From Bacteroidota bacterium (GTDB lineage: Bacteria > Bacteroidota > Bacteroidia > Chitinophagales > JADIYW01), in contig JAGQYE010000039.1 of NCBI GenBank assembly GCA_020436225.1, positions 1 through 40,154 of the forward strand: 40,154 nucleotides of DNA. The letters run 5' to 3'. Position numbers and translations under genes: made by a program. Shown piece by piece: positions 15,406-18,846 of the stretch (positions are counted from its first letter, which is position 1; every line of letters starts with the position of its first letter). The notes beneath the pieces are model-generated. The model saw nothing but the letters and a program-made list of their open reading frames with translations, was not told the origin of the DNA and made no database searches.

Positions 15406-16656
15406 TTATTGAATAATAAGTGTTTGTGTGTCGATTACTTTATCTTCATTTTTAATTAAAACAAGATAAAAACCTTTTTCTATTTTATTGTCGAATGAAA
15501 TATATTGTTCGTTTCCAGAGTTTAATTTCTTGGAAAATAAAGTTTGACCTAAACTATTTCTAATTTCAATTTCAAAAGGTAGATTTTTATTCATTCGATT
15601 TGAAATAGTAAAACCTGTAGATGCCGGATTCGGATAAATTGAAAAATTATGATTTATATTTTTGGTAATTCCACTGATTACGCCTGTGCAAGCAGTTGAT
15701 TGTAATAATGCTTTTCTGCTTGAATTAAAAATCGTATTCCGAATTCTGTCTTTTTGGTCTTTCGTGAAAATATATCTGTTACTGCAATAGCTCATTAGAT
15801 TTTTAAACGATAAAATACTATCCGGACTATTGTTGCAGTTGCTATTATTACAATCAGACCTTCTATGCGGTGGTGTGTCACAAATCCAATCTCCTTGAAT
15901 AAAACATAAATCATTTGCCGGACAGCCATTTTCAGCACCTTGAAAAGTGTGAAATAAGCCCATAGCATGACCTAACTCATGCGCTAAGGTTGTAGAATTT
16001 TTATTCATACTATTTGCAGTAATGACAACGCCATCTGTCGGGTAATTATTTCCGAATGGGAAAAAGGCATATCCGCCCCAGCCTCCGGCAATTTTATGTA
16101 CTACCCAAATGTTGAGCACATAATTATGATCCCAATCACTAAAGCCTTTAGTTTGCGTTTCATCAGAACCAAAAATTCCTTGTAAAACGGCTTCAATATA
16201 GCCAATGCCGGTTTCAGCATATCGAGGTATAGAGCTGGCATCTGCACGTACGATTCCTGTACTTGGGTTGCCGTGTGGGTCATATTGTGCCAAACAAAAT
16301 TCTACTTTTATATCATTACTCAAACTGTTTTCAGTTACAAATGTATTTCGCCATAAGCTATTGGCTTTTTCAACGGCTTCTTGAATTTGAAGATCGGGAA
16401 TGTTACTTCCAACGCCACTATCTTCGCCTAAATGCAATACATGTACAGCAATTGGAATTACAAGAACATCTTCTGTTGTTTTATTTGTTGCTTGGTTGCT
16501 ATTTATAATGGATTCAACCTGTTGTCTGAATTCAGGATTTTGAAGTTGAATAGTTTGAAATTGCTCATTAGCACAAGTATTATTTTGCGCTTGCAAAAAA
16601 TAAATAGGTAAAATTAAAAAGGAAATAAATATAAAATTTGTGCAAATTGTTTTCAT
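15406..16656 (-). CDS. Secreted M43 (pappalysin-like) zinc metalloprotease with T9SS type A sorting domain
   Basis: A 416-residue protein. A signal peptide ends near YFLQAQ. The zinc site HELGHAMGLFH is at residues 226-236, i.e. HExxHxxGxxH with the extra ligand histidine, and a Met-turn occurs in KNLMSYC farther on. Eight or more cysteines lie in the catalytic domain (ENGCPANDLC, WICDTPPHRRSDC). This is the M43B metzincin pattern. The C-terminal 80 residues (FSIYPNPAS, IRNSLGQTLF, GFYLVLIKNED, final LIIQ) are a T9SS type A domain, so it is a surface or secreted protease. A longer frame begins at TTG-like 16707, but it would overlap ilvE and spoil the signal peptide; ATG 16656 is chosen. It starts 29 bases after ilvE. 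Confidence 0.9.
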   Translation of the reverse strand: MKTICTNFIFISFLILPIYFLQAQNNTCANEQFQTIQLQNPEFRQQVESIINSNQATNKTTEDVLVIPIAVHVLHLGEDSGVGSNIPDLQIQEAVEKANSLWRNTFVTENSLSNDIKVEFCLAQYDPHGNPSTGIVRADASSIPRYAETGIGYIEAVLQGIFGSDETQTKGFSDWDHNYVLNIWVVHKIAGGWGGYAFFPFGNNYPTDGVVITANSMNKNSTTLAHELGHAMGLFHTFQGAENGCPANDLCFIQGDWICDTPPHRRSDCNNSNCNNSPDSILSFKNLMSYCSNRYIFTKDQKDRIRNTIFNSSRKALLQSTACTGVISGITKNINHNFSIYPNPASTGFTISNRMNKNLPFEIEIRNSLGQTLFSKKLNSGNEQYISFDNKIEKGFYLVLIKNEDKVIDTQTLIIQ

Positions 16657-16685
16657 TGTAGTATTGGTTTCTACAATAAAGATAA

Positions 16686-17759
16686 TTAATTTACTTGCGT
16701 TACCCAATTAAATTTATCTTCGAGCATGCACTTTTGAATGCCAACTAAATTTTCCTTTATTTTTTGTGCAACCACATATTTAGTTTCATCTAATGGGTAA
16801 TCTTTTTCTTTATAGCCAAATTTATTAACCGGACTAATCACTGCTGCTGTACCAGAGCCAAAAATTTCTGTTAGTTTACCTGCATTATATGCATCTACAA
16901 TCTCATCAATAGAAATTTGTCTTTCTTCAACGTCAATTCCTAAATCTTTAGCGATTGTAATTACGCTATCGCGTGTTACACCATCTAAAATTGTACCATC
17001 GGTTTCCGGAGTTACTAATTTCCCATCAATCACAAAGAAGATGTTCATAGTTCCTACTTCGTTGATATATTTCTTATGTTCTCCATCTAACCATAAAACA
17101 TCTTTATACCCTTTTTCTTTTGCCAATTTTACAGGATATAAAGTGCCTGCATAATTTCCGGCTGCTTTTGCATTTCCATAACCGCCTTTTGTAGAACGTA
17201 CATACGAATCATACACTAAAACTGAAATTGCTTCATCGTAATACGCACCGGTTGGACCAGTTATAATGATAAATAAATATCTATCAGAAGATCGAACACC
17301 AATAAATGGCTCAGTTCCGATCAAAAATGGACGAATATAAAGTGAGCTTCCTGTTTGTTTAGGAACGAATGAATTATCTACTTCCAACAAATGACGAATT
17401 CCATCCATAAATAATTCTACAGGCACTTCCGGCATCGACATTCTTTTGGCAGAAGCATTTAAACGAGCAGCGTTTTTTTCAGGACGAAACAACACGATGC
17501 CACTTCCATCAGCTTTATAATAGGCTTTTAATCCTTCAAAAATAGCTTGACCATAATGAAAAACATTGCACGCAGGACTCAACGCAATTTCTTTGTAAGG
17601 TTGAACTTTTGCCGATTGCCATTTGCCGTCGTAATACTCAGCAATAAACATGTGGTCGGAAAAAGTTTTTCCGAATGGCAAATCATTAAAGTCAACCGAA
17701 GCAATTTTACTTTCTTTGACTAATTCAACTTCTATTGTAGGTAATTCGTTTAATTCCAT
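16686..17759 (-). CDS. ilvE: Branched-chain amino acid aminotransferase (class IV, PLP)
   Basis: A 357-residue cytoplasmic enzyme that transaminates leucine, isoleucine and valine with 2-oxoglutarate, working in both synthesis and breakdown. The PLP lysine is K198 in GGYGNAKAAGNYAG; NEVGTMNIFFVI and SGTAAVISPV follow. N-terminal FGKTFSDHMF and the FHYGQAIFEGLKAY motif are diagnostic. An in-frame TTG at 17792 adds 11 residues; ATG 17759 gives the normal family length and lies 25 bases after a probable transcription start from the box at 17790-17797. It heads a minus-strand run of four genes to 12971. Confidence 0.94.
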   Translation of the reverse strand: MELNELPTIEVELVKESKIASVDFNDLPFGKTFSDHMFIAEYYDGKWQSAKVQPYKEIALSPACNVFHYGQAIFEGLKAYYKADGSGIVLFRPEKNAARLNASAKRMSMPEVPVELFMDGIRHLLEVDNSFVPKQTGSSLYIRPFLIGTEPFIGVRSSDRYLFIIITGPTGAYYDEAISVLVYDSYVRSTKGGYGNAKAAGNYAGTLYPVKLAKEKGYKDVLWLDGEHKKYINEVGTMNIFFVIDGKLVTPETDGTILDGVTRDSVITIAKDLGIDVEERQISIDEIVDAYNAGKLTEIFGSGTAAVISPVNKFGYKEKDYPLDETKYVVAQKIKENLVGIQKCMLEDKFNWVTQVN

Positions 17760-17789
17760 AACTAATTCAGTAATGTGCAAATAATAATT

Positions 17790-17797
17790 CAAAGTTA
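17790..17797 (-). promoter_or_regulatory. Candidate -7 box for ilvE
   Basis: On the minus strand this reads TAACTTTG, an exact match to TAnnTTTG, about 30 bases before the ilvE ATG. No clear TTTG is seen upstream at the usual spacing. It lies back to back with the plus-strand box at 17812-17819. Confidence 0.4.
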
Positions 17798-17811
17798 CGA
17801 AAAAAGCGATT

Positions 17812-17819
17812 TACTTTTG
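17812..17819 (+). promoter_or_regulatory. Candidate -7 box for the psi-like gene and rdgB
   Basis: TACTTTTG matches the Bacteroidota -7 box and sits 16 bases before the TTG start at 17836, implying a leader of about 10 bases. No matching -33 element is obvious. It supports 17836 as the true start. Confidence 0.4.
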
Positions 17820-17835
17820 TGAAAATAAAATTAAG

Positions 17836-18261
17836 TTGAGCTACGAATCGTTTTATATTATAAATACAGGAACTTCTTTGTCGGTTGAAATTGATTTCAA
17901 AGGTTATCTAATTGTATATAAAAAAAGTAAAGATGATGAAATTGCTAATACACAACTACAATTGTTGAAGCGTTTAATAGAAAATGGACTAAAACTAAAA
18001 AAGGAAAATTTTTTGTTTATAGATGTAGCTAATCAACAAAGTAGATTTTCTGTTTGGAGAAAGCAAATTGAAATCAATAAATGTATATTTTTTGGTGTTG
18101 AACCTTCGGAAGTTGGATTGAATTTCAATTTGCCGAGTTATAAAAACACAACATTTTCTTCTATATTATTTTTAAAAGCGGATGCGCCGGAAGTATTAGA
18201 GAAAAATAGCGCTTTGAAAGCAAAACTTTGGGAACAATTACAATTGGCATTTAATTCATAG
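17836..18261 (+). CDS. Unnamed 141-residue protein, possible divergent DNA polymerase III psi-like subunit
   Basis: A small cytoplasmic protein with no signal peptide, no membrane segment and no internal methionine, so the start is almost certainly TTG 17836. Predicted alternation of strands and helices: NFLFIDV, CIFFGVEP, SSILFLKA, ending in a helix. The last 45 residues (PSEVGLNFNLP, then LKADAPEVLEKNSALKAKLW) resemble the end of HolD (psi), where a leucine/proline segment precedes L-x-x-NP-x-A-R-x-A-LW-x-x-L; length is also close to the 137 residues of E. coli psi. This is my own pattern match and unproven. It is followed three bases later by rdgB in the same direction. Without that match it is simply a conserved-looking hypothetical protein. 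Confidence 0.6.
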   Translation: MSYESFYIINTGTSLSVEIDFKGYLIVYKKSKDDEIANTQLQLLKRLIENGLKLKKENFLFIDVANQQSRFSVWRKQIEINKCIFFGVEPSEVGLNFNLPSYKNTTFSSILFLKADAPEVLEKNSALKAKLWEQLQLAFNS

Positions 18262-18264
18262 ATT

Positions 18265-18846
18265 ATGATAGAACTCGTTTTTGCTACCAACAATATCAAT
18301 AAAATTAGAGAGATTGAACTTTTATTGCCTTCGTTTTTTAAGATAAAAAGATTAGAAGATATTGGTTGTACAGAAGAACTGCCGGAAACGCACGAAACCA
18401 TAGAAGAAAATTCTCTTGAGAAAGCAGAATTCGTTGCACAAAAATATAATGTGAATTGCTTTGCCGAAGATTCCGGTTTGGAAATTGATGCATTAAATGG
18501 AAATCCCGGTGTACATAGTGCGCATTATGCGGGCGACAGAAATGCCGACAAAAATATGGACAAAGTGTTACAAGAAATGGAAAATAATGACGATAGAAAT
18601 GCTAATTTTAAAACCGTCATTACACTGATTATTGATAAGGTTCAGTATCAATTTGTTGGTACTATAAATGGAAAAATCGGCAAAGAAAAAAAAGGCTTAT
18701 ACGGTTTTGGTTACGATCCGATTTTTGTTTTAGAAGACGGACGAACCATGGCAGAATTGATGTTAGAAGAAAAATCAAAAATTAGCCACAGAGCCAAAGC
18801 AACACAGCAATTGATACAATTTTTGAAAGAAAATTATTCAGCATAA
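18265..18846 (+). CDS. rdgB: RdgB/HAM1-type non-canonical purine NTP pyrophosphatase
   Basis: A 193-residue house-cleaning enzyme that hydrolyses dITP, ITP and XTP to monophosphates and so keeps deaminated bases out of DNA and RNA. The N-terminal VFATNNINKIREIE (substrate-binding T/SNN...K), the EENSLEKA motif near residue 47, FAEDSGLEIDALNGNPGVHSA near 66-85, and GYDPIFV plus KISHRAKA at the end are all family signatures. Normal length. It starts three bases after the psi-like gene, indicating one transcript, and ends four bases from the stop of the convergent YigZ gene. Confidence 0.96.
   Translation: MIELVFATNNINKIREIELLLPSFFKIKRLEDIGCTEELPETHETIEENSLEKAEFVAQKYNVNCFAEDSGLEIDALNGNPGVHSAHYAGDRNADKNMDKVLQEMENNDDRNANFKTVITLIIDKVQYQFVGTINGKIGKEKKGLYGFGYDPIFVLEDGRTMAELMLEEKSKISHRAKATQQLIQFLKENYSA

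Follow-up and report, generated by a model that had tools for sequence, protein, structure and literature searches.

The question raised by this locus is what is encoded by a short gene lying immediately upstream of rdgB in a Bacteroidota bacterium, and whether it could be a counterpart of psi (HolD), a subunit of the DNA polymerase III clamp loader. A passage of a 2012 survey places psi in gammaproteobacteria only and chi in alpha-, beta- and gammaproteobacteria, and allows that psi may become too diverged to be detected (PMC3290774). An earlier reading of the locus from the letters alone (the sequence-only reading) had suggested kinship with psi and knew of no described psi in Bacteroidota; our search of the open-licence literature, by titles and abstracts, likewise found no description of psi or HolD in this phylum. 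From the analysis of the window (the whole stretch of 40,154 nucleotides) and of related genomes, we conclude that the gene probably encodes a Bacteroidota relative of psi, for which we infer a function in the clamp loader.

The psi-like gene occupies positions 17836–18261 of the forward strand, with a TTG start, a TAG stop at 18259–18261 and 141 residues that include no Met after the start, as had been described. The C-terminal pattern L-x-x-N-x-A-x-x-x-LW-x-x-L recorded by the sequence-only reading is present at residues 121–135 (LEKNSALKAKLWEQL), and its description of E. coli psi was also accurate: the protein read from NC_000913.3 has 137 residues and ends with ...SPALTDLRANPTARAALWQQI.... 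The C-terminal signature of the window protein, DAPEVLEKNSALKAKLWEQL (18181–18240, forward strand), aligns with this psi segment. In the alignment of the family, whose best conserved part is LKxxLW, K128 and W132 stand out as near-invariant; both lie inside the signature, and neither is a catalytic His, Asp or Asn.

On the downstream side, rdgB (18265–18846, forward strand) begins three bases past the stop of the psi-like gene and encodes a Ham1-family NTP pyrophosphatase, with an unambiguous match to Ham1/RdgB (PF01725, E 9.4e-60). On the upstream side lies a divergent gene for an ilvE-like branched-chain aminotransferase (16686–17792, reverse strand), named by eye from its sequence, whose true start is probably the ATG at 17759. 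Two divergent copies of TAnnTTTG, which we take to be the Bacteroidota -7 box pattern, lie between ilvE and the psi-like gene (17790–17819). One of them, TACTTTTG (17812–17819, forward strand), is a possible -7 box 16 bases ahead of the TTG start. This promoter reading is weak because TAnnTTTG occurs in the window about as often as in shuffled sequence (75 sites against 73.7 expected). Farther upstream, the reverse-strand frame at 15406–16707, read by eye, is probably a gene for a secreted zinc metalloprotease (HELGHAMGLFHTFQG); the protein ends in a sorting-like domain (SIYPNPA...) of the kind typical of type IX secretion.

Searches with the window protein and with profiles derived from it reveal that the reading frame is a real conserved gene, more than a chance frame. 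With the window protein as query, every one of the family's 13 genomes, among them the source genome, yielded one homologue. A profile built from these 13 homologues (A1) matched 196 of the 248 genomes of the order, and a wider profile (A12) matched 226 of them, or 196 of the 202 good assemblies, with a single match in 225 of the 226. The order includes one large family, Chitinophagaceae (Pseudoflavitalea, Niastella, Sediminibacterium, Terrimonas). Outside the order, profile A10 matched 28 of 143 genomes of the class (33 of 148 when five from the order are included), and no psi-like homologue was found with it in the remaining 115 of the 148. In a phylum-wide sample of 247 genomes, profile A12 gave 30 matches, of which 13 came from the order, 16 from other parts of the class and one, marginal at E 0.0077, from another class; it found no homologue in the other 217. 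Many Bacteroidia thus yielded no homologue, so the protein cannot be a required component of the clamp loader throughout Bacteroidota. No relatives turned up in a viral search. As profiles A3, A10 and A12 were built from matches of earlier profiles, the E-values that they give later lack independence; the results given below for PF03603, NCBIfam and UDG stand outside this chain.

The gene neighbourhood is conserved together with the gene. Among 103 loci, counted after the removal of ten repeats, rdgB lies downstream in 87, being in 80 the next gene on the same strand at a median gap of 10 bases, and ilvE lies upstream and divergent in 86, directly adjacent in 80. These counts are lower bounds because the flanks of some loci cover only 1500 bases, and the loci are not all independent (the Chitinophagaceae loci L127, L129 and L130, whose contigs equal those of L062, L076 and L077 in length, are evidently identical with these, and L085, L086, L087 and L089 coincide with L173, L177, L185 and L174). 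For the class outside the order, 25 loci with 1500-base flanks (29 listed minus four belonging to the order, counted by hand) contain rdgB in 16, ilvE in 15 and either gene in 18. This sharing of the arrangement beyond the order indicates that it is old. The spacing makes it likely that the psi-like gene and rdgB are co-transcribed. The sequence-only reading had called the two fused in transcription, a reading that comes from the three-base gap; the arrangement itself is conserved. The rdgB neighbourhood may also serve as a clue to the function of the psi-like protein.

The conserved position was further used to look for diverged homologues in 28 genomes picked from those lacking a psi-like match, one of which had no rdgB match either. 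Among the 27 rdgB loci, one carries a candidate (L274) and perhaps a second does (L272), and the others have unrelated genes at the candidate position. The L274 locus (G264), from a distant family, contains a 135-residue frame exactly between ilvE and rdgB that is matched by A12 at E 3.1e-5. Its N-terminus reads GGLAMLFSEGLVVPRRP and its C-terminus RLWKAL; it is a further diverged psi candidate, located through its position. The frame upstream of rdgB at L272 (G248), with the N-terminal motif IIRLYGRYLFVIPKEE and an acidic and proline-rich linker but no LW signature, is a weak candidate (A13, E 0.088). Neither frame has a Pfam match.

Kinship with psi emerges at the level of the family. The window protein alone yielded only insignificant, unrelated matches in Pfam, NCBIfam and the PDB: PF03603 (DNA_III_psi) was not matched at E<=10, either by the protein or anywhere in its own genome, and no NCBIfam psi model was matched. 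We therefore call it psi-like, or a psi homologue, and do not file it as a Pfam member. By comparison, PF03603 is the most-matched Pfam model over the 58 members of set A3, with 22 members at E<=1 (best 1.1e-4), against two for the next family. PF03603 exceeds its curated cut-off of 22.2 bits in two of 149 class genomes (31.9 and 22.5 bits), and profile A3, built only from the order, recovers exactly these two proteins (1.4e-14 and 1.1e-12). In the class-level set A13, 8 of 28 members match PF03603, the best of them (L173) at E 9.3e-8 and 32.8 bits over model positions 36–123 of 127. Furthermore, the two NCBIfam models most frequent over the A3 members are both psi models, NF005335 (6 of 58, best E 8.9e-4) and NF004764 (3 of 58, best E 1.4e-4).

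A profile comparison with psi, which the sequence-only reading had put forward as a check, was run for the family with hhalign, using an alignment of the psi proteins of E. coli, Klebsiella and Proteus (A11). It gave P 3e-5 (probability 73%) for A12 and P 7.9e-6 (84%) for A13, over 90 to 92 columns; a rerun with other settings gave P 5.4e-4 and 6.4e-5, with low probabilities of 12.6 and 36.4%. The controls failed: across 100 column shuffles, all of them outdone by psi, the best P was 0.03 and 0.01, and with three alignments built from uracil-DNA glycosylases (UDG) of Bacteroidia P was 0.16 or worse. Comparisons with single psi sequences fall below detection: the family profiles fail to pick out E. 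coli psi by itself (2.8 bits), psi was not found among PDB sequences searched with profiles A2 and A10, and hhalign against the single E. coli sequence gives a probability of 2% over 32 columns around the LW motif. Homology to psi, suspected for the window protein by the sequence-only reading, is thus well supported for the family, but the window protein on its own shows no psi profile match.

Structure prediction places the protein in the same fold class. The AlphaFold2 model of the window protein (39 sequences; pLDDT 78, pTM 0.73) has a disordered N-terminal segment of 18 residues (17836–17889, pLDDT < 50), followed by a core of residues 19–141 (17890–18258) that, as modelled and compared by Foldseek and VIA-align, is a UDG fold, the fold shared with psi. 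In the model of a relative from the order (L156, pLDDT 80.6), the core is preceded by a short helix at the N-terminus and an unordered linker. In VIA-align, the window model aligns with the E. coli psi chains 3sxu_B (Z 8.3, rmsd 3.3, 97 of 102 residues) and 1em8_B (Z 8.2, rmsd 4.0, 104 of 110 residues), and with the family-4 UDG/UdgX protein 4zbx at Z 11.3 (rmsd 3.0, 128 residues aligned); for L156, the values are Z 12.7 with 4zbx and Z 8.2 and 7.9 with the psi chains. Foldseek retrieved 1em8_B with the L156 model (E 4.4e-3, probability 1.00), and listed no psi chain among the best 50 matches with the window model. The comparison with 1EM8 suggested beforehand therefore agrees in that psi is aligned over nearly its whole length, but in both models family-4 UDG/UdgX (Z about 9 to 12.7) outscores psi (Z 7.9 to 8.3). 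This ranking alone is not decisive because Z grows with aligned length and the psi chains compared have only about 100 residues; between the two, the sequence comparisons argue for psi.

The fold invites the alternative that the family consists of catalytically dead UDG-fold proteins that arose independently of psi and do another job, for example recognition of damaged bases or nucleotides together with RdgB, the nucleotide-pool cleaner, the likeness to psi then reflecting common descent from UDG only. The best fold matches of both models, which are to family-4 UDG/UdgX (4zbx, 1ui0, 6ail), and the conserved rdgB neighbour in 87 of 103 loci would suit such a protein. The profile evidence points the other way: PF03603 is matched by 22 of the 58 A3 members, whereas the UDG family PF03167 is not among the best 25 Pfam families listed for them, and is not matched by the window protein at E<=10. 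Nor did profile A10 score any UDG protein significantly, the best frame of 30 loci reaching 5.7 bits (E 0.38), and the three UDG alignments show no profile similarity in hhalign. The family is also shorter than family-4 UDG/UdgX. We consider this alternative unlikely, although it retains appreciable weight. A diverged but active uracil-DNA or mismatch glycosylase, for which the UDG-like fold of the models would speak, is scarcely credible. With the motifs defined as in the abstract of PMC10359453, motif A (GE[AGQ]PG) and strict motif B (HPS[SA][LV][LV]R) are each found in none of 120 distinct family members, and HP[SA] occurs in four of the 120, at scattered places. An active UDG was rejected on the absence of these motifs in 120 of 120 members, and the family is therefore not expected to be an enzyme. 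The near-invariant residues lack the catalytic ones, as noted above, and the genome already encodes an ordinary UDG elsewhere (G000:C117).

The remaining alternative, that this is a lineage-specific protein resembling psi only through a short LW motif that matches by chance, draws on the 32-column extent of the comparison with the single E. coli sequence. It is very improbable given that the profile alignments span 90 to 92 columns and outdo all 100 shuffles, that L173 covers most of the PF03603 model at 32.8 bits, and that the fold matches include psi structures aligned almost from end to end.

For a relative of psi, the N-terminus is of particular concern. According to a passage of PMC3197488, the disordered N-terminus of E. 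coli psi is conserved and required for clamp loader binding, and in P. aeruginosa psi, which itself binds ssDNA, the disordered N-terminus is long. Most relatives of the window protein have a short motif at the start (LFTEDIYLI, FLQEDLYLF and LYKNSLVI are examples), followed by a linker and then the core; in Chitinophagaceae the linker can reach many tens of Pro/Ala-rich residues. The motif is visible in the A12 alignment of relatives as [LF][FY]xxx[LI]Yx[IVL], and E. coli psi has LGITQWSL at its place. A pattern defined post hoc for this segment is present in 21 of 58 members, against a shuffled mean of 7.2 and maximum of 17 (500 rounds), and in 3 of 3 psi proteins. It is absent from the window protein, in which the segment ahead of the core is short and keeps only the end of the motif (..SFYII..). 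Most of the motif is missing here and in the genus as a whole, which is the strongest argument against a textbook psi in this genome.

Comparison with the known proteins reveals both shared and distinct features. The family shares with E. coli HolD (PF03603; 1EM8 and 3SXU, chain B) the UDG-like alpha/beta core without catalytic motifs, the C-terminal signature ending in LW..(I/L) and, as predicted, a disordered N-terminus ahead of the core, most relatives having the motif and the linker there. It differs in that single psi-like proteins lie below sequence detection, in the loss of most of the N-terminal motif from the window protein, and in its setting, holD preceding rimI in E. coli while the psi-like gene is flanked by ilvE and rdgB. 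The long disordered N-terminal region of Chitinophagaceae members resembles that of P. aeruginosa psi as described in the passage cited above; this likeness is one of described architecture, and P. aeruginosa psi works with chi.

Chi is a further difference, being essentially absent in the class. Chi (HolC, PF04364) was not found in the genome of the window, in line with the lack of chi in Bacteroidota cited by the sequence-only reading, which had advised looking for a chi-like partner there. Among 148 class genomes, PF04364 exceeded its cut-off in one, a doubtful match divided between two adjacent frames in an assembly that is 69% complete (G380:C58:24781-25180, locus L115). This could be a contaminant or a frameshifted transfer, and is probably the former. 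DnaX is present in the genome of the window (41% identity).

Taken as a psi relative, the protein could act as follows. The folded core would be a non-catalytic module for protein–protein, perhaps ssDNA, contacts. In most relatives, the short hydrophobic and acidic N-terminal motif and the flexible linker would tether this core to the DnaX collar, as in E. coli psi. Without chi, the core itself or another partner would contact SSB or ssDNA, and the contact may stabilise clamp loading on template coated with SSB. In the genus of the window, where the tether is cut to about eight residues, the contact with DnaX would be weaker, different or made through the core.

A single-copy psi homologue without chi in nearly all genomes of a Bacteroidota order would add another phylum to the range of the psi family, would show that psi is able to work without chi, which would make the role of psi by itself directly testable, and would provide a functional guess for an unannotated core gene. 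This Bacteroidota lineage may thus build its DNA-copying machine in a way that has not been described. The finding also lends support to a glycosylase-fold origin of psi. We tentatively go further, with rather less than even confidence, and propose that Chitinophagales and several other Bacteroidia possess, as an old and near-universal clamp-loader subunit in single copy, a chi-less, UDG-derived psi that links DnaX directly to SSB or ssDNA, psi being no gammaproteobacterial invention for holding chi. If so, psi would predate chi or be independent of it.
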